NCBI GenBank assembly: GCA_025765595.1
Contig: JAIVFH010000128.1
Span: 1-64,000 of the forward strand
From: Obelidium mucronatum
Taxonomy: Eukaryota; Chytridiomycota; Chytridiomycetes; Chytridiales; Chytriomycetaceae
Length of the DNA stretch: 64,000 bases
Reading direction: 5' to 3'
The notes under the pieces are model-generated. The model ran no database searches, was not told the DNA's origin, and saw only the letters and a program-made list of their open reading frames with translations. How positions within the stretch are numbered: the first letter of the stretch is position 1; every line of letters begins with the position of its first letter. Position numbers and translations under genes: made by a program. Positions 7,334 through 41,261 of the stretch are shown in pieces.

Positions 7334-7471
7334 AAAGTCTCGACTCACTTGTTGTTCTCACTTTGTTCAGTTTGTCATTACAAATTTCATTTTCAATCAA
7401 TTTCATTCAATGAAGCATTTCAAATTTGTTTCATTTCATCACTTTTCATTCATTCATTCTCTGCAAATCTC

Positions 7472-8533
7472 ATGTCTGCTCCCTGGTTTACCTCTCGCAT
7501 TGAACGACCCCTCAGTGTTCCTCGAAAACAACTTCAGCCTGTTGACTATGTTGTCCTCCAACAGTCCACGCATGCATACCTTCGTCAAGCTGTTGAGTTT
7601 TCTACTTGTCGATCCCATGAGCAAGCATGGAGTCTCTGGCGAATTTTTCAGTCTCACTCAGATACGTCTACTCGCCCCCTACATGCCACACAGTCCTGAA
7701 CGGGTTGCTTTATATGCCTCTTGGCTTGCGAATTCGGGCTATAAATATTCCACTGTTCAACAATATGTTGCAGGCATTGGTGCTGTTTATACTGAGTATG
7801 GATACAGCAACTGGGATTCTATCCGCGCTCATCCTGCTCTAAAACGAGTTCTTGGTGGAATTGAAAAATCGTGGCATCTTCAGCATGTGCAGACGTTCCC
7901 AGTGCAGGATTTATTTACTTGGTCGGAATTTTGTGCTGTTCTCATCGCTGCCTCGAGGATTCTTTCTGTTCATGACCGATGTCTTTTCGAGCTCTCCTGG
8001 TTTTTGGCTTTACGGCATTGCACAGACTAGCTGAGCTAACGGCTCCCACGAATACTCATCATGCTGCTGCTATTACTTCCCGGCGTATTTCTTTGGCCAG
8101 TGTGTCTTATGCCATCATCCCTCCCCTTACCCGTCCCAGCTACATTGAATATTCTTTACCTTATCATAAAGGGGATCCTCATTCCCGTGGGACTCAATGT
8201 CGTATTTTTGATGACTCTATCTGGAAAACCAGTCACCACATTCGCCATGTCCTGGAATACATTACATTGCGTCGTTCTTTACCCACAACTTCTCCAGATC
8301 TTTTCTTGACTACAACCTTGGAGTATCCTTCCCGTCGCTGGTTCCTTGACCACTTGAATTCTTTCACAACTCACCCCCATGGTAGCAAATCGTTACGCGC
8401 TGGTGGGGCTACTTACGCTGCTCTCACTGGAAAATCTCCTGCTTTTATCAAGCTCCTTGGTCGCTGGAAATCAGACGCATGGCTCGCGTATGTCCAACAG
8501 TGGACTGCCCTCCGACATTCACTCCAACAGTAA
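7472..8533 (+). pseudogene. Tyrosine recombinase (YR) of the Ngaro element, frame broken twice
   Basis: The protein can be followed from MSAPWFTSRIERP (frame of 7472) to about 7650, then in the next frame (LLAPYMPHSPERV..) to about 8010, then back in the first frame (TALHRLAELTAP..) to the stop at 8533. Catalytic residues are recognisable: Arg in HRLAELT, the HxxR-like HGSKSLRAGG, and the LGRWKSDAWLAYV segment with the nucleophile Tyr. The two opposite frame changes compensate, as two single-base indels would. Sequencing error in T-rich runs is possible, because the element repeats are otherwise identical. If the breaks are real, this copy needs a recombinase supplied in trans. Confidence 0.8.
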
Positions 8534-11439: not shown

Positions 11440-12590
11440 TCACCCGGTCTTTTCCTGTGTGTCAATAAAAGATTGGGAAATTTTTTCCGTCTCCCCAATC
11501 TTTCATTGGCAGGAAAAAGAGACGCTTTTTGAGACCGGAGAAAAAACAGAAAAAAGCAAAGTCCCGTCCAAGTCTATGAAGAAACTTCAAGTGCGAATCA
11601 ACTCACCAACGGGCCGCAATCGAATCGACGTCAACCGAAAGCGGTACTGACTCTTCAATCGGCCAGCAGCTGTCGACGACGACCCGGAGGCGACGGCAGA
11701 GGCCTTTACGGCTGTCAGCGAGATGCAGCGCCAACAGCAACGGCAGCGGCAGCGGTAGCAATCCGTTCCGTCTGCGGCCAGAAGTTCTCACGGCGGATAC
11801 AATGAGGACTTCGAAACAATGGAAGCATCGATCAATGGTAGTGTCTTTATTCTTCATGCTCTATTCCATCCCTTGCAGGTCCTCATTAATATTCACTAAT
11901 ATTTACAGTTCCTCTTCTACGTCTTCTTCTTTTTCTTCTTCTTCTTCACAGGTATTGAAGAGTCTGACGACGCCGAAACCGAGATGACGATGAGTTCAAT
12001 GTTCGCTTGCAGTCCCAACAAACGCGTCGCTAACATGGACCTCTGATTCTGAAGTTTGGGTCTCGCTCATGCACGACTCAACCACGTGCCACTTCCTGCC
12101 ACTGTTAGAGCGCCAGAAAACGTTCCGGTTGGACACTCATTGCGTGAATCAAGGCGTTGCTAGACGCGCTGCTGGGAATATGTGAAGAATAAAAACACTA
12201 CCTTGAAGTGGGTTGATGCTTCCATTGTTTCGAAGTCCTCATTGTATCCGCTGTGAGAGCTTCTGGCCGCAGACGGAACGGATTGCTACCGCTGCCGCTG
12301 CCGTTGCTGTTGGCGCTGTATCTCGCTGACAGGCAGTGACAGCCGTAAAGGCCTCTGCCGTCGCTTCGGGGTTGCCATCGACTGCAGCTGGTGGTTGGTT
12401 AATACTGTCGATTCGATTGCGGCCCGTTGGTCAGTTGATTCGCACTTGCTGTTTCTTCATGGACTTGGACTTCTGTTTTTTGTCCGGTCTCAAAAAGCGT
12501 CTCTTTTTCCTGCCAATGAAAGATTATTGGGGAGACGGAAAAAATTTCCCAATCTTTTATTGACACACAGGAAAAGACCGGGTGAGAAGG
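11440..12590. repeat. Foldback element: two ~0.4-kb inverted arms
   Basis: The left arm (about 11440-11856) starts CTCACCCGGTCTTTTCCTG. It recurs in reverse complement at about 12184-12590, with a single-copy centre of about 330 bp. The arms share the GATTGGGAAATTTTTTCCG and GAACGGATTGCTACCGC blocks with only scattered differences. Such long inverted arms without a coding centre fit a foldback or non-autonomous DNA element. Ends are approximate and I could not define a target duplication. Confidence 0.65.
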
Positions 12591-12909
12591 CTGATAGACA
12601 ATCTTCAAAACCCGCCAACTCCATTTTTTGTAGCGGAAGAACCAGCGGATGGATCTTCCTCAAATTCGGCACAGGTGTAGTTCAACGTATTTTATTAGTT
12701 TTGGCGGCCTTTTGGCCACGTGTTTCTGACAGTTTCCGTTTGAATAGTGGGGCCGCGTTTCAGACGTCTCCAGTGGACTCAAAACACGCTATATGCTCCT
12801 ATCTCTTGTTTTTTTTTGCAGTATATCCAATATATCAACATATTCTATTACCGTTTGACACGTTGATTTGACCTGGAAATCATTTTTTGTTCTGTCCGGA
12901 AACACATCA

Positions 12910-14574
12910 ATGTCACTAGAACATGATCCCATCTTGGAAGCATGCATCCTGCTAACTGCCAAGTACTACGAGAGTGCTCCTCGTGACTATCAAATTGCTT
13001 GCGTCAAGGCTGTGTTGAATGGGAAAGACTGCGTATTGATTCAAAGGACCGGCGGAGGCAAGACATACACTTTTTACCTGTCTCTGCTGGCTCACATGCA
13101 AAGAATGGCGGATTCTTGTAATCGAAAATCGGTTTTGTTCATTATATCTCCACTCTTGGCAATCATGATTGACCAAATGGCAAATTTGGAGAAATCAGAC
13201 ATACCCCTTCGACCGGCAGCTTTGGATCATTGGATATGAACAAGATTGGGAATTCTTCAACACTGGAATTGCTTGAGAGTGGAAATGTTGATGTTGTGTG
13301 GATGACTCCGGAATTTTTAACAAGTATTCTTGGAGGAAAGGATATGAAGATACTCAAAGTCATTCAAAAATTTGCGTTCGCGATTGCAGTAGACAAATGG
13401 CACGAAATGACCAACGCGGGAGATGTTTGGAGACAAGACTATTTGAATCTGGAGAACATTCGTGTTCATTTCAAGGATATTCCTTTCATTGCAGCTTCAG
13501 CAACGGTTCCAAAGTCAATGTACAACAAGATGTGCAATTGACTGAGATTGAGACCAGGATTTGCCGAAATTATGGGGTGTGTGGATCGGCCAAACTTGTT
13601 TTACGATGTCCGGGAGCGGAAGGAAATGCAAAAGGATCTTGGATTCATCAAAATAGCTCTTGAAACAAAAACTTTTGATCCAAGTGTTTTTGTTCTGGTC
13701 CTCTTCTGTGATTCAAAGACCACACTGAACAAGATTTACACGTACCTTTCAGCTGGCATCTCCAATTACCCCCCCATGCTCACTCACTTAACTGCCTTGT
13801 CTTCGGAATCCCACAAAAACGCAGTACTAGACCTGATTCAAGAAAACCCTAATCAATTGAAGGTTATTTGCACCACTCAAATGCTGGGCCAGGGCTTGGA
13901 CCATCCTTCATTAGAACTGTTGTTCATTACAAGACTCCAGTATCATTTTGCAATGCTGCCCAGGAATTTGGGAGGACTAAAAGGGATGGATTGCCCAGTC
14001 GTTGTCTCTTCTTCCACTCCCTCCAGGATTTATCAGACAAGAAAAGCGATTCTGTGGCGTTGAAGGAGAGTAAGGCCACCAACAGAGAGATGTACTCTCT
14101 CTTTGTATCAACACCTTCAACTTCAAATCCAGTTTGCCGAAGGAAGGTTCTTTTGGGGTACTTTAAGGGGCTTGATCCGGTACCAAATGACCGATGCTGT
14201 GATGCTTGTGAGTCTCGTAAACCAACTATACCCCAGTCTGGCTTGATTCCATATGTGTCCAACACTCCATTGCTCAAACAAAAAAGGCACATTCGCTCGC
14301 AATGTGGATTGACAGTTGAAGAATCCATTAAACTGTTTTCGGAGCTGTCAGAATGGTGGGAAAGCTGTTTGATTGGAGTACCATGGGAGTTGGGACTTTG
14401 CAGATTCCCACAGGAAGTCATTGACGATATTTGCAGAGATCTGAAGGGTGTGGTTCTCGACTCATTTGTTGATTGGATGGATAGTTTCGAAGACAAATGG
14501 AAAATTGAAGCAAAAACACTTGTTGTTGCATATTTGAAGGAGTTAAAGAAAATGCCTAAGGTGAGAACGGGGCG
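12910..14574 (+). pseudogene. RecQ-family helicase, decayed
   Basis: The sequence begins MSLEHDPILEAC at 12910. It contains Walker A (QRTGGGKT), LLFIISPLL-type motif Ia, a degenerate DExH box (AVDKWHEM) and motif III AASATV. Later come CTTQMLGQGLD and a degenerate motif VI QEFGRTKRDG. The RecQ zinc-binding subdomain follows (CRRKVLLGYF ... CCDAC). The frame changes near 13220, meets an in-frame TGA at 13539-13541 and shifts again near 13925, so no single protein is made. RecQ helicases unwind DNA 3'-5'. Free-standing, mutated RecQ copies in fungal repeat regions are often telomere-linked or transposon-borne, and that interpretation here is inference. A MITE now covers the original stop. Confidence 0.82.
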
Positions 14575-15003
14575 GGGGTCACCCCGCGGGGCACCCCTGC
14601 CCCGATACTCCGGGGTCCGGGGTAGGGGTCGACTTGAACCCCGCCCCGCACTCCCTGCACTCCCCCAAGGTAAGATAAAATATCTATAAAAAGCCAATTT
14701 AGCTGGCATTTTAGTGCGTTTTTTGACCACTTACATGCTCTCGGGCAGCAATTTGACTGTAGTTAGCATTTTTTTCTTTTGAATTTTATTTATTTATGAA
14801 AAAAATAAAAACCAAAAAATTTTTTCTTCGAAATTTTATTAAAAAAATTTTACTCTGTTTTTATTTCTAAAATACACACACCGCCAGAGGTAAGCCACAG
14901 CCCTGAGGGTTGCCCCGCAGGGCGCGGGGAAATCCTGACCCCGACCCCCAAAGATGCAGGGAAAGTCCTGCCCCGCCCCCAACCCCGCCCCGTTCTCACC
15001 TTA
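14557..15003. mobile_element. hAT-like MITE with 8-bp target duplication
   Basis: The ends are TAAGGTGAGAACGGGGCGGG and its inverted copy at 14984-15003. The element is flanked on both sides by AAAATGCC (14549-14556 and 15004-15011). The 8-bp duplication and the first bases TAAGG fit the hAT consensus YARNG. Each arm is a GC-rich block of about 110 bp around an AT-rich centre. There is no coding capacity. Removing it brings the RecQ frame to a TGA three bases after the insertion point. Confidence 0.85.
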
Positions 15004-15041
15004 AAAATGCCAAATTGACCAAATAAAAAGTAACACAATTA

Positions 15042-15985
15042 TTATTTCGTTAAATCAAAAATTTCAACACCATCCTCGTCAAACACCCGTTCATCTAACT
15101 CCTCAATATCATCCTCATCCCCAAATCCACAAAAAAAGTTCTTCAGCTGCCGAGCAATATATCCATCCTTGACTGACTCCTTGTAACCAACTTCCAGCAC
15201 AGGTTTAAAGGCATATTCACCCACTTTGAAGTCGCCTTGTACTCGATTCATCTGAGATTTGACATCAAACATCATGGTCTCCTTGTCTTTTTTTGTATCC
15301 ACATTGTGATGATATGCTCGTCTTCTTGGAATGTCCAAGTGGTCAAAAAGAGAGCTAGTCAAGCTACAGACATGAGATGCAGTCATAGAAACTGTTTGGG
15401 TATGATTCCAGTTGCGGTTACTTCCTGCTTTGGATTGAAGTGACTTCATGGCAAGGACTTCATGCATATTCCTCGTTCCTGAGGAGTCATCATTGATAAA
15501 TCCCACAACTGACGCACACTTCCCTGTGCGTATTTTTTGGAGTGTCTCTTGAGCAATGGCAAGAACAGCTTATGCATGATATTCACGCCTTCTCCGTCAC
15601 CATAGCGAATGCAATCGTAGAAGACCAATGATTGAAGTCGCAAGCGTATAAATTGCAGCATGTAGTTGCGGAAAGGGTGGGTTTCCAAAGGAGAATACTC
15701 CGTAGCACGCTTTCCTTTGTTTACAATTGGCTTCAATTGATAGACTGCTCTGTTAACATGAAGCAGGAGAGTATTCACAATGTAGTCCAGCTTTTCTTGA
15801 CTACCTGACTGCAGTCCTGACAGGTCATTGGCACAATCCACCGTAATAGAGTCAGCAAGTGCAACAACATAGGTGCTAAGGGAGCCGTTTAGCACATCTT
15901 GCATCTTGTAGAATGTCGCTTTCTTGGCATTGATATTCTGCCAGAAACCGCTTAGGAGTTGTTTATTGTTTAACAGTAGTGGCAC
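15042..15985 (-). pseudogene. DUF6589-like transposon-associated protein, frameshifted
   Basis: Two overlapping minus-strand ORFs (15446-15985 and 15042-15506) read as one protein with a frame change near 15480. Recognisable pieces are YGDGEGVNIMHKLFLPLLKR, KYAQG..RQLWDL, GTRNMHEVLAMKSLQSK and a C-terminal acidic tail. The GDG..LLP.LK..YA order, followed by a glycine-containing N-x-H-E block, recalls the DUF6589 proteins common in fungal repeat regions. The assignment rests on pattern memory only and is uncertain. No start upstream of 15985 is certain. Confidence 0.4.
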
Positions 15986-16481
15986 AGTCCTTTGCCACTA
16001 GAGAAAACTAATTAACTAAATTAAAATAAACACTCAGCGTATTCCTGGGGATTAGTAAGTTGTGAAATTCCAACGGTCCCTGATATTGGAATTGCTTATC
16101 AAAGCTGCCCGCACTGTCTCAAGGCTCAAGGGATTAGTAAAACAATAAATAAATAAACGAATAATAACAGAATAAACACGTAAATAAATAAATAAATAAC
16201 TAATTCCCCTCGCATGCTCTTTCCGCTACTTATGGTAACTGGAGGAGTCTTCGCGTCAGATCGCGTTCAACAACGCCTCACATCCGCGTCAGATCCTCTC
16301 CATCTCTGGTTCAATGACATCACCCAGTCTGTGCTTCCTGGACTTTCTCGGTTCCCTCGCGCGTGGCCCGTTTCACCCGACTCCATGTGAGCTACGGCTT
16401 CCACCCAGTTTCCCGCTATGAGAGGTCCAGTTAATCCCTGCGTTAGATCATTACTCGCTGCCGCAGATCCCCGGATTGGCG
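15986..16481. other. Probable 3' end/LTR remnant of the gypsy element
   Basis: Non-coding. On the minus strand it follows the integrase stop directly, as a 3' untranslated region and LTR would, but no second LTR copy is in the window to define its ends. An AT-rich AATAAATA stretch lies at 16145-16200. Confidence 0.35.
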
Positions 16482-18575
16482 CTAAAGGTATGACTTGGAT
16501 CTAGCCCCGCCGCTCTCTTCGTCTTCTGAGATGGGGACTATATCCCTAATGGCCTGGGCCGGTTTAGGATACAAGGGGTCATCAGGACTGATGCCAAAGA
16601 AGGCATCAGAGGGTAGACGTGCATCACGGCCATGATACATGAAGAAAGGTGTTTCGCCTGTTGACGAGTGAACATGTGTGCAATATGCAAACAGAATGAA
16701 GGGTAGAATATCATCCCAATCATTAAAATCATACTGATTAATGTAAGCTCGTAATTCCTGGGATAAGGTCTTGATTAACCTCTCCACAGGTCCGTTAGCC
16801 CGGGGCCAGTATGGTGCTGTGAAGGTTTTATAGAACCCCATCACCTTACTCACTTGTTTCATTAAGTCATCGTCCAATGGAGGGCCGTTATCTGAATGAA
16901 CAAATACAGGTAACCCCGTTCTTGTAAACACTTCTTTTACCAAGGCTTCGCAAACAGTCTTGACAGACAAATTAGGCAAAGGAACTGCTTCAGCCCATTT
17001 TGTGAAACTGTCTACAATTACCATGACATACCGATTGTGCGAGGCTGACTCAGTCAGGGGTCCCATGAAGTCAACAAAGACTCTTTCCCAGGGATACTCA
17101 CCAAGTGGAATAGGATGCACAAAGCCAGTCCTAGCTGCATAATCCTTAGACTTTTGGCAATCCTCGCAAGACTGGATATGGTTTTTCAAATCACTTATAA
17201 TGGAGGGCCACCAAAACCTGTCAAGTAATGAGGGTAGGATTTTGGAAGTACCCAAGTGGCCACTGAACAAGTCATCATGATGCTTTTCTAAGATCTCCCT
17301 TCGAAGACCATCTGGTACACACAATGCTATTCGGCCAGGCATACGACGCATAGTAGCAGAAGCTATGTCTGAGACACGGTATAAGAGCCCTTGATTATCC
17401 AACACTAAATACTTTGATCCTAAGGCCATCATCTCAGGCTCCTTGTTTTCAGGAACAATACCTTCTTCCCAATATCTAATAATGGGTCCAAAAATAGGAT
17501 CTGCAAGCTGAAGTTCACGAATGCGCTTAGTGTCAAAACCAAAGAGAGGTAATGTAGTGAAACCCAAGTTGCACTCCAGGAATTCAGATTGATATGTTGC
17601 ATAATCCCCCCTTGTCATTTCAGGAGAGACCCAATCGGTTTTGTCTACAGCACCAAAGTCGAGTTTTAAGTGATCTAACTTAATATCAGCTCGCAGGCGT
17701 AAGTGGTCCCTCATGTTAGTGCTAGTGTCCACTCGAACATCAAAATAACAAGGCTCAATACGTTTATCAATGAGTATATGGTCAATTCTCCAGAAAGGAT
17801 ACTCCTTTTGGTCCACGGTCTTTAAGGTCCAGGTTCCCCTCATATCCAAAGGGTGCTTAACTCTAAAGCTATCATGGAAATTGTTAAGCATGGACGCAAA
17901 CCATTCTTGCTCAACTTTGGTTATAGTTGAACGAAATCGTTCAGTGAGACGTTCCTCCATCACAAACAGAAGTACATCCTTATCGGAGGGGGCTATATTG
18001 AAGTCGCCAGTGGCTATAACAAGGTGTGTTTCCTGTAGTTTGCTACAATGCTCCTTGAAACTGTTTAGGAATTGCAGTTTATACTCCTGCCTTTCATCTG
18101 TACGCATACCACTAGGAATGTAAGCAGTTGTCACTGCTACTTCTCCAATTGTTAAAGTAATAATTCGACCCTCGTCCTCAGCTCTGGAGTTGTACATTCC
18201 ACTTCGAATGGAACTCTCCTCAACTTGATGTGCAAGTTCGCGTCGCCAAATGATGGCAACACCTGCATACCCCAGGGTTTTGTCGTTAAAGTGACAATTC
18301 CACTCTTCAAGTTTGCTCATAGCTTCAAATAATTTCTTACTTTTGTTATCAGTGCCCATCCGCGTCTCTTGGAGGCAGATGATACTGCTTCCCATTGAGT
18401 TGAAGAAGAGCGACAATTGTTTGTCAACAGCTTCTTTATCCAGCTTGTTTTCTTTAATGTACTTTTTTAGTAACTGTCTTAATCCATTGATATTCCAAGT
18501 CACTACATTGAGGCTATGTCCCTCAGCCTTAAAAGGCTTTACAGGTTGTTTTGGCACCTTTTGTAGATCTGTCAT
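16482..18575 (-). CDS. Ty3/gypsy Pol segment: AP-endonuclease-like (EEP) domain fused to integrase
   Basis: One uninterrupted 697-aa ORF. Residues 22-302 form an ExoIII/APE1-type endonuclease with all expected active-site motifs: WNINGLR (N28), LQETR (E70), AYIPSG (Y152), GDFNIAPSD (D191, N193), WRIDHILID (D265) and RDHLRL (H291). Residues 425-650 are a Ty3/gypsy integrase: H433, H440, C470 and C473 zinc site, then VDFMG (D502), HSDNGP (D562) and GPVERL (E598). Integrases insert LTR-element cDNA; ExoIII-type enzymes nick abasic or target DNA. An ExoIII-type domain is typical of non-LTR elements, so its place here is odd. The ORF lies +1 relative to the upstream RNase H ORF and follows its stop by 13 bp. 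Its start could be earlier than the ATG at 18575, since the frame stays open upstream. Confidence 0.9.
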   Translation of the reverse strand: MTDLQKVPKQPVKPFKAEGHSLNVVTWNINGLRQLLKKYIKENKLDKEAVDKQLSLFFNSMGSSIICLQETRMGTDNKSKKLFEAMSKLEEWNCHFNDKTLGYAGVAIIWRRELAHQVEESSIRSGMYNSRAEDEGRIITLTIGEVAVTTAYIPSGMRTDERQEYKLQFLNSFKEHCSKLQETHLVIATGDFNIAPSDKDVLLFVMEERLTERFRSTITKVEQEWFASMLNNFHDSFRVKHPLDMRGTWTLKTVDQKEYPFWRIDHILIDKRIEPCYFDVRVDTSTNMRDHLRLRADIKLDHLKLDFGAVDKTDWVSPEMTRGDYATYQSEFLECNLGFTTLPLFGFDTKRIRELQLADPIFGPIIRYWEEGIVPENKEPEMMALGSKYLVLDNQGLLYRVSDIASATMRRMPGRIALCVPDGLRREILEKHHDDLFSGHLGTSKILPSLLDRFWWPSIISDLKNHIQSCEDCQKSKDYAARTGFVHPIPLGEYPWERVFVDFMGPLTESASHNRYVMVIVDSFTKWAEAVPLPNLSVKTVCEALVKEVFTRTGLPVFVHSDNGPPLDDDLMKQVSKVMGFYKTFTAPYWPRANGPVERLIKTLSQELRAYINQYDFNDWDDILPFILFAYCTHVHSSTGETPFFMYHGRDARLPSDAFFGISPDDPLYPKPAQAIRDIVPISEDEESGGARSKSYL

Positions 18576-18588
18576 AGATTTGATTCGA

Positions 18589-19389
18589 CTATCTTTTGAG
18601 CGGTTTTTTAGAATGCGTTTTGGAAAGATCGCTAATTAGCTTCTGAGTTTCATCAACCGCTTCTCCCACCAGTGTTTCATAGTGGTGCAAATATTCTTTC
18701 TTTGCATATTCCAACTCATAGTGTGAGCGGTTTCCCTTTAAGCCATAAATTAATGCTTGAGTCATCGAAATTAATGGGGGTAACTCAACCCCTTGGTCAT
18801 TCTCTGACCATTTACCCTCTTTTTCAAGAATGAAGTAATCTTTGAAACAAAATGATGTTTCTGCGTCGGTAGTTTCAACTTCTTCTGGCAGTTTAACATT
18901 GGAGTGAATGTTCACCCTGGATAGGGTGTCAGCCACAATTTGGTTTTTTCCTGCAACATGGGTGAGAGTAATGTTGTAATTGCTTAGGGCATAAGCCCAT
19001 CTAGCAAATCTACCGGTTAGTTCACCTTTCTTAAACAAAGGTATCAGGGCTGAATGATCTGTCTCAATTGTTATTTTGCAACCAAATACCCATCTGTCAA
19101 AGGTATTTACAGCCCATACACATGCAAGACCTTCACGATCTGTGTTGGAATATCTCTGCTCCACTTCAGACAATGTCCGTGAAATGAAAGCAACAGGTTT
19201 TCTGGATGACTTAAGGCCATCTTTGCCCTTAAGATAAATTGCAGCTCCCAGCGCATGCTTAGAAGCGTCACATTCGATAATAAATTCATTTACATCACCA
19301 GGTTCCTGTGATGGATCAACAAGGACTATGTCTTGCTGTAACTTTGATATAAGCCCTTTAAAAGCTTCATTGCACTCAAATGTCCAACT
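18589..19389 (-). CDS. Ty3/gypsy RNase H domain (5'-truncated Pol)
   Basis: The frame contains FIIECDASKHALGAAIY, KPVAFISRTLSEVEQRYSNTDREGLACVWA, ETDHSALIPL and VADTLSRV, giving the D-E-D-D active site of gypsy RNase H. The genuine gypsy part begins near SWTFECNEAFKGL. The N-terminal residues of the open frame (to 19473) are encoded by the copia LTR that has replaced the RT domain. After RNase H there is a linker of about 80 residues, then a stop at 18589-18591 and a frame change to the endonuclease-integrase ORF. Confidence 0.85.
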   Translation of the reverse strand, partial: SWTFECNEAFKGLISKLQQDIVLVDPSQEPGDVNEFIIECDASKHALGAAIYLKGKDGLKSSRKPVAFISRTLSEVEQRYSNTDREGLACVWAVNTFDRWVFGCKITIETDHSALIPLFKKGELTGRFARWAYALSNYNITLTHVAGKNQIVADTLSRVNIHSNVKLPEEVETTDAETSFCFKDYFILEKEGKWSENDQGVELPPLISMTQALIYGLKGNRSHYELEYAKKEYLHHYETLVGEAVDETQKLISDLSKTHSKKPLKR

Positions 19390-20007
19390 TGTTGATTTGC
19401 GGCGAGCTAATGTAAGCTTTATGTGGTTATAATTGTTTGTCAGGAGACAAGTTGTTGTCTTTTTCCCTGCCACAGACTCCGCTTTTATAGCGTTTTACTG
19501 TTGCTTTAGTCTTTTACATGGTCCCATTGAGACCTGTTGAGGTTGAAAACCTCGTATCCCATTTCCCCATTGAGGCGGTGCATCAACTTGGTATGGCGAT
19601 TTCCAATTGGGGGAAATTAGTGAAGGGGAAATTTATCACTTATTAATAAAGGTTACATTTACAAAATGTCTTCATCTTTCTACATGTGAGCAGCTGATAA
19701 AACCACATGCCGCCAAGGTCCAAAAGCATAACCCATCTCTGGTTAAGGCGTCCCTTAATCTCGGCAGCGCACGGCCGATGTATTATGGTGTTTTGGTTTG
19801 GAAAGCATGCAGGAAAGATGGACTTGGTGCAGCGGTCAAGGCGCTGGCTTTGAGAGCGTTATGCCCCGGGTTCGAATCACGGAAACTCCTTTTATTCAAA
19901 CAATAAAGATTCGGGTTGAATTATTCAATCCGTACAACTTATAGTTTATTTCTAATCTCTGTTAAGTAGTGCAAGTGATATTGTATCTTTATGCGTAATA
20001 CTCAACA
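19390..20007 (-). repeat. Copia-2 LTR (618 bp), inserted in the gypsy element
   Basis: On the plus strand it begins TGTTGATTTGCGGCG and ends ATACTCAACA, so it has the terminal TGTTGA/TCAACA inverted repeat of an LTR. On the coding (minus) strand it follows the RNase H end and a purine tract at 20008-20016, as a 3' LTR should. It contains a tRNA-like segment around 19829-19895. Confidence 0.8.
19826..19895 (+). other. tRNA-like segment within the LTR
   Basis: It holds an A-box-like GGTGCAGCGGTCAAGG and a near-canonical B box GGTTCGAATC with the usual spacing. Acceptor and anticodon stems have mismatches and the anticodon position is unclear. It is a tRNA relic or Pol III promoter rather than a working tRNA. 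A copy occurs inverted near 21925-21995. Confidence 0.45.
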
Positions 20008-20020
20008 TTCCCCCGCAATA

Positions 20021-20553
20021 TTACTTGGCTGCGTTTCGGGGTGTGGTGGAAGATTTGACTTCTTGCAACATAGCCAAACTTCGTAACCCAAGATTGAATG
20101 TCGCCTCTCGATGTTCAGTAGGCCCAACTGCTTTCGTTAAGAAATCAGCCCACATTTGTTCGGTCGGAGTGTCCTCAAGGACCACTGTGCCGTTGTTAAT
20201 GTGGTAGTTTAAGTTCTTATCTTTCACGTCCATATGTTTAATACGTTGATGTTGACCTTCCTCATTAGCGATGAGAATACTTGACGTGTTATCTTGTTTA
20301 ATAACAATATGATCTTGACCAGAGATACCCGAAGATTTCATAAGCTGCAATAGCCAGATAATCTCGCGTATGGCTTCAGAGAGCGCAATGAGTTCTGCTT
20401 CAGTGGATGACAAAGCAACAGTAGTCTGTTTCCTTGACTGCCACATGATTGCAGCGCCAGCGAAGAGAATAACAATGCCTGTTCTAGAAGCGCGTCCTTT
20501 AGCTTCAGCAAAGCTTGCATCTGCGTAGCAGATTGGTTGTAGTGTAGGATCAT
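20021..20553 (-). pseudogene. Copia-2 RNase H, frameshifted from RT
   Basis: The ORF 20021-20446 contains WQSRKQTTVALSSTEAELIALSEA, IKQDNTSSILIA, HMDVKDKNLNYHI and WADFLTKAVG, the classical copia RNase H motifs. It is preceded by a short out-of-frame piece that still encodes GYADASFAEAK-like sequence in another frame. The Pol polyprotein is therefore broken between RT (stop at 20561) and RNase H. Confidence 0.8.
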
Positions 20554-20560
20554 TTAGGAA

Positions 20561-21807
20561 TTACTTTTCCCCGTCAACGCGTAAGATTTCATTACCTGGT
20601 TTCTGGTAACAAATTCCCAAATCGCGCGTACCGTTGAGATATAGAAGAACGCGTTTCAGCACTTTCATGTCCTCGTTGGTAGGTTGAGTCTGGTATTGTG
20701 AAAGAATGCCAATACTACAAGAAAGATCGGGACGAGTCTTCCCTGCTAAGTATAGTAAGCACATGACCACAGATTGATATGCTGCGGACTCAGCAACATT
20801 AAGAAAGCCTAACGTATCTTCATGTTTCCAGTTCCTGGTCATCGGATTTGGTGCCGTGTCAGTAGAATTTTCTAGTCCCGCAAACGTTAAAATTTGCTTT
20901 GTGTAAATTGGCTGACCAATCCACGTAGAATCTTCAAATTGAACAATCTCCACTTTGAGAAACCATTCAGCGGGTCCCTGCTTACCTTTACCAAAGCGTT
21001 GGTTCAACTTCATTAATTGAAATTCAGCTTCAACTTTATCTTCAGTAATGTAAAGCTGGTCGTCAACATGACTAGCCATTTGTAAAGTGTTCTCTGGGCC
21101 GTTCGGCTCCTTAGGAGGTAGAGTTTTGATTAGATGACAAATGTCAGCAGGATCAGACTCAACCCCAAGATATTTGTGAAAATTGATGAGAGTTTCAAAC
21201 CAAATACGCGAGGCTTGGTGAATCCCGTAAAGAGACTTGTCAAGCCTACAGACAATTACTTGCCCATGTATATTGACTTTTCTAAACCCATGTGGCATTT
21301 CTAGATACAGTTGCGTATCTGTTTCACCATGTACAAATGCGTTTGGGACATCCATTTCGAAAACAAATTTACCTGTGAGCGCTGCAAAAGCAATAAGAAA
21401 CCGAATAGTCTCTGTTCGCGCAACAGGTGAGTAAGTTTTGAAATAATCAAGATTCTTGACTTGGGAAAATCTGCGTGCAACCCAGCGGGCTTTAAAACGT
21501 TCCAAAATTCCCTTGGCAGAAATTTTGAAAGCAAAAACCCACTTGCCTGACATAAGGCGAGCGCCTTCCGGTAAGACAGTTTCTGTCCAAGTCTCATTAT
21601 TCATGAGTTCGTTGTATTCACGTATCATGGCAGCTAACCAATAGGCAGCGAAGACTGGGTCTGCCATGGCCTCCTCGACAGTGTTTGGGATCTGAGGCAA
21701 GTTCTCTTTTCTCCAAATCTGTGTAGGCACCGGGCTTGGGGCCGGAGTTACCCAAGTAAACTTGGCAAGGTGATCACGTAAGAAAAACGATAGGGGTGAA
21801 CTAGAAT
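20561..21807 (-). pseudogene. Copia-2 reverse transcriptase, 5'-truncated
   Basis: Motifs include LMSGKWVFAFKISAKGILERFKARWVARRFSQ, FVFEMDVPNAFVHGE (motif A), LDKSLYGIHQASRIWFE and ASHVDDQLYI (motif C, with His in place of Tyr). Gag, protease and integrase are absent: the frame is cut at 21808 by an LTR copy in the opposite orientation. This copy cannot be autonomous. Confidence 0.85.
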
Positions 21808-22442
21808 TGTTGAGTATTACGCATAAAAGATACAATATCACTTGCACTACTTAACAGAGATTAAAAATAAACTATAAGTTGTACGGATTGAATAATTCAA
21901 CCCGAATCTTTATTGTTAGAATAAAAGGAGTTTCCGTGATTTGAGCCTGGGGCATAACGCTCTCAAAGCCAGCGCCTTGACCGCTGCACCAAGCACATCT
22001 TTCCTGCATGCTTTCCAAACCAAAACACCATAATACATCGGCCGTGCGCTGCCGAGATTAAGGGACACCTTAACCAGAGATGGGTTATGCTTTTGGACCT
22101 TGGCGGCATGTGGTTTATCAGCTGCTCACATGTAGAAAGATGAAGACATTTTGTAAATGTAACCTTTATTATTGAGTATTAACGCCGTCAGACGGCGATA
22201 AATTTCCCCTTCACTAATTTCCCCCAATTGGAAATCGCCATCTCAAGTTGATGCACCGCCTCAATGGGCAAATGGGATACGAGGTTCTAAACCTCAACAG
22301 GTCTCAATGGGACCATGTAAAAGACTAAAGCAACAGTAAAACGCTATAAAAATGGAGTCTGTGGCAGGGAAAAAGACAACAACTTGTCTCCTGACAAACA
22401 ATTAACCACATAAAGCTTACATTAGCTCGCCGCAAATCAACA
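21808..22442 (+). repeat. Inverted second copy of the copia-2 LTR (635 bp)
   Basis: It is the reverse complement of 19390-20007, at roughly 95% identity by eye. It differs by a small insertion (CGCCGTCTGACGGCG) near 22180-22200. Normal LTRs are direct repeats, so this copy is either an independent solo LTR inserted in the opposite direction or the product of an inversion. Confidence 0.8.
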
Positions 22443-30612: not shown

Positions 30613-31605
30613 CGTTTTTGTTAAGTGTTGATTTGTGTTTTGTAGTTCAAGTCTTGCGGCGTTTGCCTTGAGGACTGTGTGATGTAGTTTTGGTTGCTTG
30701 CGGTTGGTTCGCAGAGCTTGGAGTGTCTCGGCATCAAGAGGTTTGTGTTTGACTTTTTCCAATGTTGAGGTAGTTTTTAACATTGGTATCCACAGCAACG
30801 TTGTCTTGATTGGTAACTCTGGTAAATTCGAGACCAAGTTGTGTGGAGGTAGCAAATGTCGGTTGCAGCCACAACGGATATATGGTGGGCTTGAAGATAC
30901 AATCTTTGAATCGAACAAGGTGAACCCGAGCAGTTTCCAAGTCGAAGACGATGACTTGGGATGGAGTCTTGGATCCAAGGTAAATTCCCTCTTTCCGTGT
31001 TGGTTGTGTTGAAACAGGAAGGTATTTGACAGCACAACTGAAGGGTTGGAAGTGAGACATTCGAGGACGAATTCTGGAGCTGGCATATTCAGGACTATCG
31101 ATATCGTGCGAGATAACAGGTAAGACATTGTTGATTTCTGATGCATGTTCAAACGCGTATCCCCAGTATTCTAATGGTGATTTGCATTGATATAGGAAAG
31201 TCCTGGCCATCTTGCTCAAGGTTTGAATTGTCCGTTCGGGTCCTCCATCGATTTGGTGCTGTTCGGGTTTTCCTGGCTCGAATGAGATGTTGTTGAGTTT
31301 GCAATATTTCATGAATGCTGGAGATCTTCCCAGTTCTCCAGGATCCATTCGCATCCGTTTTGTGGTAAGTTGGTATTTTGTTATCGTCTTTTGATGAAGT
31401 CGAATAGCCCAAACTAAAGCTTCATCTTTGTGCTCAAGTAGTGCGACGTCAGATCTTTTCAAACCATAATCATTCATCACGAGCGCGTATGGGTATTTTC
31501 CAAGATGTGGCGGTTTGATTTCGACGACGTCAAATCCAAGTTGTTCACCAGGTAAATGTTTCTTTGGATCAGACTTGAACGGTTTGTAACACGGGATGCC
31601 TCCAA
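30613..31605 (-). pseudogene. Copia-1 integrase (C-terminal part of core)
   Basis: Readable from CYKPFKSDPKKHLPGEQLGFDVVE, through YPYALVMNDYGLKRSDVALL, to FMKYCKLNNISFEPGKPEQHQIDGGPERTIQTLSKMARTFL. This corresponds to the D, D and E region of copia integrases, with DGGPERT in place of the usual NGxxER. The N-terminal zinc domain is missing because of the insertion at about 31606-32495. There is a frame change near 31000. Confidence 0.78.
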
Positions 31606-32495
31606 TTTCCCAGGAACTGCGGTCCAGGTGAGCTCCCAGAAAGTCCCATAGGCTGAGCGTGGCTGTGTGCTACAGATCCAGCCACACTCTCTGCAAGCCT
31701 GAGCTCCAAGCCCACGCTCTAAGCCCAGATCCCTTCCGCAGATATAACCTATGGGTTTTTCATTGTTTGGTTAGTAATCTCTCCACACTTTTAATTCCCG
31801 TGCGAAGTTAGACTGATCACAATTAGTGGTCCCTGGCCCTGATACCAACTGCGGAAATAGCTGCCGCTACAACTTTGACTCTATCAAAGGGTTAAAAGCA
31901 AACAAATAAAGAAAGAAGAAGAAGATAGAAGAATAAAGAACGAAATTAAATAAAACACCACTTACTAACCCCGCTCCTTACGTCACGTGCCTCAAGCCCA
32001 TCATCCACCCTCATCTCCCCACGCGCCACTGTTTGATTTTGACCAGACCTCACCTCTGCCGCACCGTGGGTCATCAAACACGTGATAATAATTATTACTA
32101 GCTAGACGGAATTGTAATCGCAGTCCCGGGTCCCTGCCTTGGGGTCCGCAATCCGCAACACAGTTAAGTCCCGCCGCCAGAATTCTAATAGCGCCTTTCT
32201 TGATCCTCCGCTACCAGTTTGGGCCACTCTGTGTCCGCCGCCTCCAGGCCTACGTAATAATTACCGCAAGGTCCCGTGGATCTCTTCAATCCACTCATGT
32301 GACTTGCGTTACACACGCGTCATCCGACATCAAACCCCTTGTCCTGCGAACGCATCGCAGGAGAACGATAGAATGCGTTAAGTTGCGCATCTAGAGAACC
32401 TACACCCTCCCCAGGATAATCATGTAAGTAACCGACACGTTGTTACTCTGAAACTGGGACTTGTGGTAAGCCCTGTAGAGCTGGATAGTGGCCTA
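31606..32495 (-). mobile_element. LTR-retroelement remnant inserted in copia-1
   Basis: It interrupts copia-1 Pol between the protease and the integrase. On the minus strand TGGTATCAGGGCC at about 31832-31844 resembles an initiator-Met-tRNA primer binding site placed just after an LTR-like ..CCGCA end. This suggests an LTR to its right (to about 32490) and a short internal remnant to its left. The outer ends and any target duplication were not resolved. Confidence 0.45.
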
Positions 32496-33299
32496 CTATT
32501 TCATTCTCAGCAACTTATATTTTATTTCTTCACCGCATCCCCTTTTTGTAGTTTCCCCCACAAAAGGGAGCCCTCTTGAAGATTGGAAATGGAGTCCAGC
32601 GTCTTCAAGATCATTGGTCCCTATTAGGTGAGTTACAATCTTTGGAGTGAGGCACGCGTCTTTGATTAATAACGCGTATCCATTTTCTAGAATAATGACT
32701 GCGTCTCCAGTTCCAGTAATCTGAAGCGGAGTTCCATCTTCGTCAGCGGTACCGGAGGTTCGGCTACACGGAGTAAAAGAGACGAAATAATCCGTGGTCT
32801 TCAGGCAAGTCTTTCGGCAACCTCCATCAATGACGAAGACAAATTTGGTGTTTGTTGGCTGAAACTGGTACAAGAGTTTTGGTGTTTCCTTGATACTGGT
32901 AAGTGTTTCAGTGTTGTTGTATAATGTAATGAATTCTTCTAATGACTTATCATTCGCAGGGGGGACTGCGTCTGGCTGTGACAAGACCTCATTCTCATCA
33001 CAGGCCCCCCCGGTGCGGAACGCCCTTTTGATTTCGTCATAGAGTTGATTGTAATTATTTGAATCCAGAATATCTTCGGGAGCTGGGTCTATCCTCGAAG
33101 GTAAACTGAATTTGGTTTTTGATGTTGTTGTATTTGTTGGTTTTGCTGATTGTTTCCATTGTAGGGTACGTTCAGCTTTGCGGAGTTGCGGTTGAAGGTT
33201 TTGATGAATGATAGAATCAGGAACGGCTTTGTCTTTCCGTCGCTTCTTCTTAGTGGTAGTAGTTGTAGTTAAAGGTATTTGATTTTCTTCTTCTTCCAT
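32496..33299 (-). pseudogene. Copia-1 Pol N-terminus with aspartic protease-like region
   Basis: It contains FVFVIDGGCRKTCLKTTDYF, where IDGG stands in for the usual D(S/T)G, followed by DGTPLQITGTGDAVI and HLIGTNDLEDAG. This matches the copia protease layout but the active-site triplet is altered. The frame is continuous upstream of 33299 back to the gag overlap, and ends prematurely in the inserted element. Confidence 0.7.
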
Positions 33300-38189: not shown

Positions 38190-39020
38190 AAAAAGTCCTA
38201 GCGGAGGCCAACGGCACAAACACACCTCAGTTCTTTGGTTATTCCACTGGTTCCTGGGGCTTTTTTGGTTCCAAGCTGTTCCAGCGCTGTGGCAACTTCG
38301 TCTTCTGTTACCGTTGCTGGGGGGATCAATGGCTCAGGTGGTTAAGACCCGGGGTCGATGTGCTGCAGGTTCCTGGTTCAAATCTGTGATGGAACCAAGA
38401 TTGGTGGTAGTTTAGGAGCCCTAGTGGAGACCTGCACTTCTGAACTATGGATGAAAGTGGAGGGAGTTGAAAAATTAAATTGCCGCCTATACAGGGCTGG
38501 AGGGTTTCGTTCCGTGGCGAGGTTGGATACAACAGCGACATACTTTACTCTAAATAATAAAGTGAGGAATAAACCACTAAAAAAAAAAAAAAAAAAAGTC
38601 TTCTGTTACCGTTGCTTTCATAGGCTCGTAGATGCTCTCATTTACACTTTGCAACAATTTGTACGCGTCAAGGAATATTGAGTTCTCTTGGAACTCTTTA
38701 TCTGGTCTTCTGTGAAACCATTCCTTCATTTGCTTTGCAACTTCTATTTTGACTTCCTCACTGTCGAATTCAATATAGCTTTTACCTTCTTGGTCAGTGA
38801 CTTTAATTCTATCAAGGTCTATTTTGTGGAATCTGTCGAGGACACTGTTAAGGAATCTCTTTGTGTTTTTGTTCATTCTATTGTTCCTAGCTGCCATGTT
38901 TCCTTCAATCATTTGGGTGATGGCTTGCGCCGTTGCACTTTCCATTTTCTTTCTAACCTCGTATAGCTGTTCTGTGAAGTTTACACCTTCACGGGAGGGG
39001 GTTTTTGACTTTCCCGCCTA
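38190..39020 (-). pseudogene. LINE (non-LTR) ORF2 fragment upstream of the RT
   Basis: On the minus strand the frame reads SREGVNFTEQLYEVRKKMESATA.., then MNKNTKRFLNSVLDRFHK, IYEPMKATVTED. Across a SINE it continues EVATALEQLGTKKAPGTSGITKEL, the ..KAPG.DGI..E. block that precedes the RT of LINEs. Both ends are truncated: neither the endonuclease nor the RT core is present. Confidence 0.65.
38319..38597 (+). mobile_element. tRNA-derived SINE with 19-bp target duplication
   Basis: The head has A box TGGCTCAGGTGG (about 38331) and B box GGTTCAAATC. The body is about 170 bp and the tail is a run of about 19 A (38579-38597). GTCTTCTGTTACCGTTGCT flanks it exactly (38300-38318 and 38598-38616). Perfect duplications and an intact A tail indicate a recent insertion, into the LINE fragment. 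Confidence 0.93.
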
Positions 39021-41261
39021 GAATACTAACTTTGACAGCATTTTTATTTATTAGTTGTTATTTATTATTCTTTATTGATTTATTTGTGATTCTCTGTTTT
39101 GGGATTGTCGCGTCGATCAATAAAGATTTGGAGTTGTTGAGAATTGAAATGACCGGCATGGCGTGATGGCGACCATGTCCTTCCCAGGTCGCGTCAGTGA
39201 TCGCATCTCTCACGAGCGAACTTTATAAGAGAGGGCTACGTCCCTCCAAGGGGATCCTATTGTGAGTTGATCAGATTCAGTGAGTGAACGTGAGCGAAAT
39301 CAGTTGTGCCAAAGGGTATTCCGGAAGATACCTGGGCTTTAGTAGCTAGCGAGTATAGCGGTCTTGAGTTGGGCAAAGTAGCGCATGGGAATGATCCCAG
39401 GAAGTCGACTAGGGAGCTTTAAAGAGTCGTAGTAGGTGTGCACCCAGTCGCTGTTGGAGAGCCTGCTATTGGGATGATGACCCAGGGTAAAGGCGACGGG
39501 TCCCACAGATCGTGCAGCCGAGCAATCAAACTAGGAGTGAGATTTAGTTTAAGGGTTGTAGGTGCGTAGGGACTTAGAGGAGTAGGGCCACCGCAGATCT
39601 CAATCTGATTGACATGGATCCGGAAGGGGTTGTGCTGGACCGCAAACCCAATGGAACCAAAAACACTTGCGAGTGGGGTAACGCGAGTAAAGATAGGAAG
39701 ATTTCATTTATTTGGGATTCGGTTAAGTTCTGTTATTTCTTTTATTTTATTTCTTTTATTCGGTTCTTTCACTTGTTCTTCTTTTAGGATCATTATTATA
39801 ATTATTCCTCGTGAGTACGCCATTGCCACAAATTTTACTGATGAGTATCTGGGCCACTGGACCGCTCATCAGGCTCAACCAACGACCCATGCATTCTGGA
39901 CTATCTTTATTTAAACGATAAGGAAAGACTAGGAATGTGTGACAGGGGGGCCCAACCTTTAAAAGAGAGTCTTTTTATGACTGAAACTAATGTTTTGCGC
40001 GTTTATTCCGTTTTTTTGACGTGGTCTTTGTGCCCGTTGCCCTTCGTCGGCCCCACAACAGTTGACTTTATGTCCTGTTGCCCTTCGCGGCTTAATACAG
40101 ATTATTAAAAACGGAAATAGGGAGAGAACCTATGCCCAAATTTTGGGAATTTTCAATGATTTTTGTTGAGTTGGGTTAGTTTAAATATTATAACTAAAAT
40201 ACCCAACGCGTTTTTACGCGTTTCAAAGTTGAAATACAATAAGTGGACGTTAATTAAGCTATGCTTTAAGTTTGGGAGCGATTGGAGCGTGTTTGACACG
40301 CGTTTCTGAGATTTGAAGTGTTGGTGATTAGAAGAAATCTCACTTACTACTGAACCGCTGAATCAAAAACTCTGAAACTTGGAAGACATATTGTAGAAAT
40401 ATTATTAATTCTTTTAGTAATGTTGAAAAGCGCGTTTTTCAGTTTGGTGGAAGTGCGTGATGCTAGAAAACCACAACAAAAATCCAGAAAGAGGAGCGAT
40501 TGTGGATGAATTACCAAATTATCTTATTTTAAAATAAGTCTGCAGAATGGAGTACAGACAATAAGTTAGTTTACTGCTGCGCCCAGGGATGGTTTTAAAT
40601 CACCTGCGACGTGTCAGAACTGGTGCTCTGTGCAGACGCGCCTTTGTGTTGGCTGGACACTCGGGCAGGAAAAATGCTCCTAAACCCTGCAGCGGCGCAG
40701 TCTCCGCTATTTTCGCTTGCGTTTCCAATCTGTTATGCGCCTGATCTTTATTGATTGTTGTTGTTTGGTTTGTCAACAACGGGTACATCAAAACTAAATA
40801 AACAGAATAGATTCAAAATATTGAATTATTTATTCAAGCTCTCTTGAATCTGGGAGAACGGGGGTATTGGTGATTTAGTTGATAGTGCGATGTTAGACTT
40901 GTTCACCCAAGTCACACCCACCTAAAGTAGTCTTCGATGACACGATAAAGACTATGAACAAAAAAGTTAATAAAAGGCTCTTGTTAAAACACTCTGCTCA
41001 ATAAAATTTGTTGTTTGTCTGATTCATTTGAGGGATGCGAACTGCAGCCTAAGCTGCTTGAACATTGGTGAGTTGAATAACGTCCGCGCAGTTTGATCCG
41101 ACATCGGCTAGAGCATAGGTGGGTTCAATAATTACAACCCCCGTCTCGTCACAGCCAGAATGACAGGCGATTCCAACCACATCTGCTCGGGCATAGGTGG
41201 GGTTATTTCTTTTATTATTATTATTTATTACTCGAATAAATATTTTTTTCTTATTAACAAA
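39021..41261. other. No recognisable gene; spacer between repeat nest and host block
   Basis: I see no conserved protein. Scattered features are a TATA-like TTTATAAGAG at about 39221, two nearby GTTGCCCTTCG blocks (40035-40090), and a plus-strand ORF of 101 aa at 39609 without recognisable content. The last 200 bp precede the SWIRM gene and carry short triplicated motifs. Confidence 0.4.
41052..41208 (+). repeat. Three copies of a ~28-bp motif upstream of the SWIRM gene
   Basis: Copies near 41052, 41103 and 41180 share the pattern (A/G)(G/T)C.GCT.G..CAT.GGTG.GTT. They lie 80-210 bp before the start codon, so they could be regulatory, but this is only positional inference. Confidence 0.4.

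Follow-up and report, generated by a model that had tools for sequence, protein, structure and literature searches.

A minus-strand open reading frame (ORF) of 697 amino acids (aa), in a 64,000-nucleotide stretch of the Obelidium mucronatum genome (contig JAIVFH010000128.1, positions 1–64,000; hereafter the window), was found to fuse an endonuclease/exonuclease/phosphatase (EEP) domain of the ExoIII/APE1 (xth) type to a Ty3/gypsy integrase (IN). The same fusion recurs across the genome in long terminal repeat (LTR) retrotransposons whose Pol has the order reverse transcriptase (RT), RNase H (RH), EEP, IN, which we call type I. With a probability of roughly 0.55, we consider the EEP to be a captured cellular-type abasic (AP) endonuclease that would be packaged with RT and IN and act on the element’s own DNA. 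APE-type nucleases have so far been a mark of non-LTR elements, and here one of the repair type sits inside the Pol of an integrase-bearing LTR element. This suggests that the elements bring their own tool for cleaning damaged DNA copies of themselves.

The ORF spans 16485–18575 of the window (minus strand; stop codon at 16482–16484) and consists of the EEP, a linker, an H2C2 zinc finger and an integrase core. Pfam matches exceeded their cut-offs for Exo_endo_phos at residues 25–280 (56.6 bits, cut-off 24.5), Integrase_H2C2 at residues 420–477 (70 bits, cut-off 25.5) and rve at residues 499–589 (35.2 bits, cut-off 32.6). In window coordinates, all on the minus strand, the EEP domain occupies 17694–18509, the HHCC zinc finger (PF17921) 17145–17318, and the integrase region as a whole (residues 416–660, from Pfam and alignment) 16596–17330. 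The single-frame fusion and the catalytic residues listed in an earlier sequence-only reading of the window were borne out, as the EEP residues N28, E70, Y152, D191, N193, D265, D290 and H291 and the integrase residues D502, D562 and E598 were all present. The closest structure in the PDB to the 697-aa ORF was Ty3 Pol (7q5b); the structure model of the ORF was of poor quality across the EEP.

That reading had also taken the copy to be intact, which it is not. The RNase H part (18589–19389, minus strand; PF17917/PF17919) lies in a different frame from the EEP, as a frame check showed, with RT_RNaseH matched by Pfam in the upstream frame 18589–19473. Similarity to the closest copies, at loci C625 and C182, is confined to 16513–19389, and that stretch alone is pol. 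At its 3′ end, a deletion junction with 9 bp of overlap (16513–16521) joins pol to the interior of a partial LTR (15939–16521, minus strand, TG start at 15939, 99% identical to its counterpart in the C182 copy). The junction makes the C terminus of the ORF, such that residues from about 688 onward are LTR-derived and the sequence beyond the integrase core is lost. On the 5′ side, the match to other copies stops at 19389/19390, at an inverted-repeat block bearing copia sequence. In addition, position 289 of the SDH motif is Arg in the window copy and Ser in every other EEP that was read, whether of type I or of type II (see below). The window copy is therefore a decayed remnant: truncated, frameshifted ahead of the nuclease and lacking Ser289.

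The RH-EEP-IN order that had been proposed is disrupted in the window copy by the separate frame of RH, but it is a real and recurrent one, and its recurrence both within the genome and in the outside protein P0001 (see below) rules out chance. The search covered all 48.3 Mb of the genome, in 694 contigs, and the counts are lower bounds as the best candidates alone were scored. EEP sequence, in some cases partial, was present in 14 of the 15 loci at ≥45% identity to the window protein, so that the copy is not unique. The fusion was found at 97–98% identity in C625 and C182 (twice), at 55–58% in C601, C33, C183, C649, C132 and C191, and, in a more broken or incomplete state, in C305, C77, C473 and C140. 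C3 holds an integrase fragment only, without EEP, and the remaining matches are integrases at 24–33%. A single open frame covers RH, EEP, H2C2 and rve in C601 (1600 aa) and C33 (1580 aa). Upstream of these domains, C183 has a CCHC motif, a protease match below cut-off, RT and RH, in the order of a Ty3/gypsy Pol; its element is 14.7 kb long and includes a 3.2-kb stretch with the RT that is absent from C33. The type I RT motif is YVDD in C183 and YIDD in C625. Two further observations were made on these copies. Beyond the integrase, a stretch of 550–650 aa (L011, 238–2001; L009, 6562–8526) contains RWVGPVRI...SRLRPF, which by eye is GPF/Y-like, and a chromodomain-like segment; it had no match in Pfam. 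At C182, 18744–54923 (L012, L013), two inverted type I copies are 99.87% identical over 7.5 kb, which is either a large palindromic duplication or an assembly feature.

RH-EEP-IN elements with two LTRs, which the sequence-only reading had suggested looking for, were found at C33 (974 bp, 99.9% identical), C183 (971 bp, 99.8%) and C182 (1046 bp, 99.5%); the LTR pair of C132 is 96.9% identical. LTR ends of the form TG...CA were observed at C33, C183 and C182 copy 1, and these three of the five insertions examined are flanked by 4-bp target duplications (ACAG, TAAT and ATTC, respectively). The other two, C132 and C191, have no target duplications and may therefore be recombination products. A conserved 15-mer, GGGGGGCCCAACCTT, occurs at nine places in the genome (e.g., C128:39945, C33:138266 and C182:35289), with no control matches. 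At the eight places inspected for this (all but C473) it begins 0–2 bases 3′ of the 5′ LTR, and there is no TGG there. The putative primer-binding site is thus unusual, and the primer is possibly a non-tRNA end or the element itself.

The earlier assumption that the nuclease is an endonuclease of the non-LTR type is not supported. Scores against the xth profile TIGR00633 (cut-off 99.05 bits) were 135.2 for the window protein, 118.1 for C33, 122.4 for C601 and 115.5 for P0001, a protein from outside the genome, and the catalytic N, E, Y, D, N, D and H are present in all five aligned type I rows. By profile and fold, the EEP is classed as a member of the xth (ExoIII/APE1) family. The genome has 91 matches to TIGR00633, 20 of them above the curated cut-off, and all 20 precede the H2C2 of a gypsy integrase on their own strand. 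The gap between the two is 301–375 bp at 11 loci, with RNase H upstream of the EEP at 10 (the exception being C53), and 1917–3024 bp at nine loci, all nine with RNase H between EEP and H2C2. Nine of the short-gap loci are window-like, that is type I, with gaps of 351–375 bp; C579 and C53 are not. Among the 71 matches below cut-off, an H2C2 lies within 6 kb in 19 and in none of the other 52.

None of the 11 loci with the EEP directly before the integrase was among the 25 matches to PF14529, the profile of the endonucleases of long interspersed nuclear elements (LINEs). Twelve EEPs that score 84.6–91.1 bits as xth and have no H2C2 within 6 kb are all above the PF14529 cut-off, and these integrase-free EEPs are probably LINEs. 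A LINE-derived EEP is disfavoured by the two profiles, and no LINE EEP appeared in the EEP trees. The possibility that the EEP is a host gene, with a pseudogene inserted in the window, found no support in the 20 high-scoring domains; the profile search of the genome recovered no host gene with this EEP, where an intron-split gene would score lower and could escape. One candidate, C1:588k, turned out on reading to be a type II-like EEP with a broken frame of the domain. Where among cellular xth enzymes the domain originated is not settled by the EEP trees.

A second arrangement, type II, has the order EEP-RT-RH-H2C2, in single frames at C151 (1432 aa) and C26 (1718 aa) with xth scores above cut-off. 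The rve match of C26 is below cut-off and that of C151 is missing in Pfam, and D1033, D1092 and E1127 are conserved in the alignment. Further type II frames are those of C295, C93 and C10 (1432 aa) and C493 (1375 aa). Of the nine type II loci, C295, with its neighbours, only just attains the PF14529 cut-off, and C10 and C151 are below it. Sequence 3′ of the C151 ORF recurs 8.2–8.3 kb upstream in C151, C10, C93 and C295, and these LTR-like repeats are candidate LTRs. C579 and C21 have the order RH, EEP, H2C2, with frames broken before H2C2. Their EEPs share 37–40% identity with the EEP of C26, a type II locus (that of C579 is 29% identical to the window EEP), and their integrases are 34–36% identical to that of C26, to which the window integrase is 23% identical. 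Based on the type II-like character of both domains, the EEP of type II kin seems to occur both ahead of RT and between RH and IN.

Outside the genome, P0001 (739 aa, ENA) was the only EEP bearer among five protein matches, and at 40% identity in the alignment it retains the integrase triad and all of the catalytic residues of the EEP. Type II also has outside relatives: among 82 proteins listed, PF03372 was found in P0126 and P0127 (ENA) and in P0128 (Chytriomyces confervae), so that the EEP-RT-RH-IN order is known from C. confervae as well. The start of the EEP is also contained in P0195 (O. mucronatum), and P0129 (C. confervae, 840 aa, a record without EEP) groups within type II in the RT tree. 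The named relatives of EEP elements, C. confervae and O. mucronatum, both belong to the Chytridiales. A search with the 1580-aa polyprotein region scored the 7992 candidates sharing most words, and PF03372 occurred in none of the best 120 of its 126 protein matches. No relatives were found in the viral contigs scanned, and the scan of genome contigs returned one myxobacterial xth and nothing else.

In trees of RT-RH (55 of 61 proteins after a match and length filter, with two type I rows) and of IN (38 of 73 rows, chosen by us, with five rows of each type), the two types form separate groups, each with 100/100 support, in different gypsy lineages. A single pol clade for the two types was rejected with p = 1.6e-45 (RT-RH) and, in the topology test on the IN tree, p = 4.5e-5. 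In the EEP tree (18 rows), each type forms one clade (100/99) and the two join at 78/83, where long branches meet; a single EEP origin for both is neither shown nor excluded by this tree. Two captures, or one capture followed by transfer between elements, would both fit the trees. The separate RT and IN ancestries, together with the two of 11 short-gap loci that resemble the second lineage, indicate that the nuclease joined gypsy pol repeatedly or moved between elements.

The proposal that the fusion has been under selection is supported for the EEP by part of the family, and the window’s own pairs differ near neutrally (see below). The active sites are kept over 40–58% identity, and the ratio of nonsynonymous to synonymous change (dN/dS, NG86) in the EEP was, on small counts, 0.09 for C33/C183, 0.10 for C33/C132 and 0.33 for C601/C649, three of the five close pairs with a defined ratio. 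The C625/C182 comparison has no synonymous change in the EEP, and its ratio is undefined. Between subfamilies, dS is saturated and dN is 0.37–0.41 for the EEP and 0.23–0.25 for IN. Judged from these comparisons, the EEP is under constraint, weaker than that on the integrase.

In our preferred explanation, the EEP would be made and packaged together with RT and IN, and its substrate would be the element’s own DNA. There it would incise abasic sites left by the removal of uracil or damaged bases and would trim blocked 3′ ends, such that RT could fill in and IN would receive clean 3′-OH ends; insertion itself would be left to the DDE integrase. Several observations weigh against this explanation. 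The EEP ratios of the window copy are 0.77 against C625 and 1.02 against C182, on few changes, and the 0.09 of C33/C183 also depends on few changes, with a linker and IN that have no synonymous change. None of the loci read held a complete and intact element of type I, and no search was aimed at one. The genome also has many gypsy integrases that lack an EEP. C132 and C191 (L016, L017), which are 99.99% identical over 6953 bp, have in common a ~410-bp deletion of the EEP N terminus with frames otherwise open, which indicates that the EEP may be dispensable in cis. It could also serve another step, such as primer or RNA removal, or targeting.

One such alternative is that the EEP supplies RNase H-like, 3′-phosphatase or exonuclease steps of reverse transcription, e.g., removal of the primer. 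ExoIII has RNase H and 3′-phosphatase activities, and the odd primer region, with GGGGGGCCCAACCTT and no TGG, would agree with such a role. A well-scoring RNase H domain is already present, however, and the primer region was read for type I elements alone, and we regard this role as unlikely. We consider it quite unlikely that the EEP participates in integration, either nicking or targeting chromosomal DNA as LINE enzymes do or steering IN to damaged sites. The EEP fold is common to LINE endonucleases and the type I EEP adjoins the integrase, but the short target duplications indicate that the integrase makes the insertion, and their canonical form, with TG...CA ends, is the signature of a DDE integrase and argues against LINE-style nicking of the target. 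The integrase residues are invariant in the five aligned rows, the EEP is of xth rather than PF14529 type, and in type II it sits at the opposite end of Pol. The suggestion that the EEP gives the element another means of opening target DNA is thus weakened.

That the EEP is a passenger, a fused host gene fragment without a role that recent amplification has maintained, is improbable. The EEP-deleted C132 and C191 and the near-neutral differences between the window copy and C625/C182 would suit a passenger; the invariance of the catalytic residues down to 40% identity, the low ratios in three pairs and the presence of the domain in two or more pol lineages would not, and P0001 and the type II relatives P0126–P0128 largely exclude it. 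The rearrangements that bound the window copy might suggest a chimera, from assembly error or nested insertion, at this locus alone. The chance of this is negligible with the same order on many contigs, in subfamilies at 55–58% identity and in the outside record P0001, and recurrence rules out both a chimera and a single captured host gene.

A broader proposal, which we advance tentatively and at somewhat less than even odds, is that the Pol of chytrid gypsy elements repeatedly took up an ExoIII/APE1 repair nuclease, in two different places and in two or more pol lineages (with type II kin using both places), for autonomous base excision on the elements’ own cDNA, and that EEP modules circulate as interchangeable parts. 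An EEP conserved to 40% and acquired or exchanged repeatedly would mean that base damage in cDNA is a real constraint, or that the EEP has a new role beside the DDE integrase. The system is testable, as its families have many copies and the LTRs of some are nearly identical.

Type I elements have the CCHC motif, the (weak) Asp protease, RT, RNase H, H2C2, DDE integrase, TG...CA LTRs and short target duplications of Ty3/gypsy elements (Metaviridae), and differ in the ExoIII/APE1-type endonuclease inside Pol. LINEs lack LTRs and a DDE integrase and use their nuclease for target priming. APE-type LINEs likewise carry an EEP-fold nuclease within a retroelement, whereas type I elements have LTRs, a DDE integrase and a non-PF14529 endonuclease. 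The dUTPases of lentiviruses such as feline immunodeficiency virus and of endogenous retroviruses are independent captures of an enzyme of nucleotide or DNA quality, at several Pol positions including one between RT and IN (PMC2427051); dUTPase blocks uracil entry, whereas an AP endonuclease would act once the base is lost. They are the parallel for the role proposed here, as an answer of retroviruses to the same problem. HIV-1 is said to use UNG2 plus an AP-endonuclease activity of its RT, and APE1 was detected in HIV-1 particles by one report but not by two others (PMC2427051). LTR elements of bdelloid rotifers also have captured nucleases, swapped between element classes, but these are of another fold (DEDDy exonuclease, or GDSL, in a separate ORF3 after pol), with a dUTPase between PR and RT (PMC5408684). 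In orchids, a gypsy lineage has maintained a captured catalytic domain, a different enzyme (m6A demethylase) placed in an additional ORF (PMC9289625). Kuafuorterviruses are LTR elements with reported, sporadic Exo_endo_phos, at a position that the excerpt does not state; they are animal elements, mostly 5–6 kb, with the RT motif IADD/VADD/LADD replacing YXDD, unlike the YVDD/YIDD of type I (PMC11673190). Besides these, no description of an EEP inside an LTR Pol was found in the literature covered (including excerpts of PMC9926174, PMC10799480, PMC3248453 and PMC3441728), a scope outside which most subscription papers and Repbase lie.

The surroundings of the window copy hold further traces of these elements. 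The flank at 12584–15938 is common to the window and the C182 insertion (99%, with 213 bp extra in the window), which indicates that both descend from one insertion that was duplicated. On the other side, the foreign block at 19390–22442 has inverted-repeat arms of ~600 bp, in pieces and 94–100% identical, around a Ty1/copia RT fragment (20561–21847). A second element, of the C33/C183 subfamily, is represented on the plus strand at 38973–40380 by its 5′ LTR (38973–39944) and first ~436 bp, with GGGGGGCCCAACCTT following the LTR. The ~980-bp plus-strand segment at 31585–32565 (TGTAACAC...CCCCACA) is 96–97% identical to sequence that adjoins the C601/C649 elements and, based on that position of its counterparts, is likely an isolated LTR of their subfamily. 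By eye, tyrosine recombinase-like and RecQ-like helicase ORFs, with several broken frames, were observed at 7410–8533 and 12868–14689, and the RecQ-like region, 12868–14689, falls within the duplicated flank.
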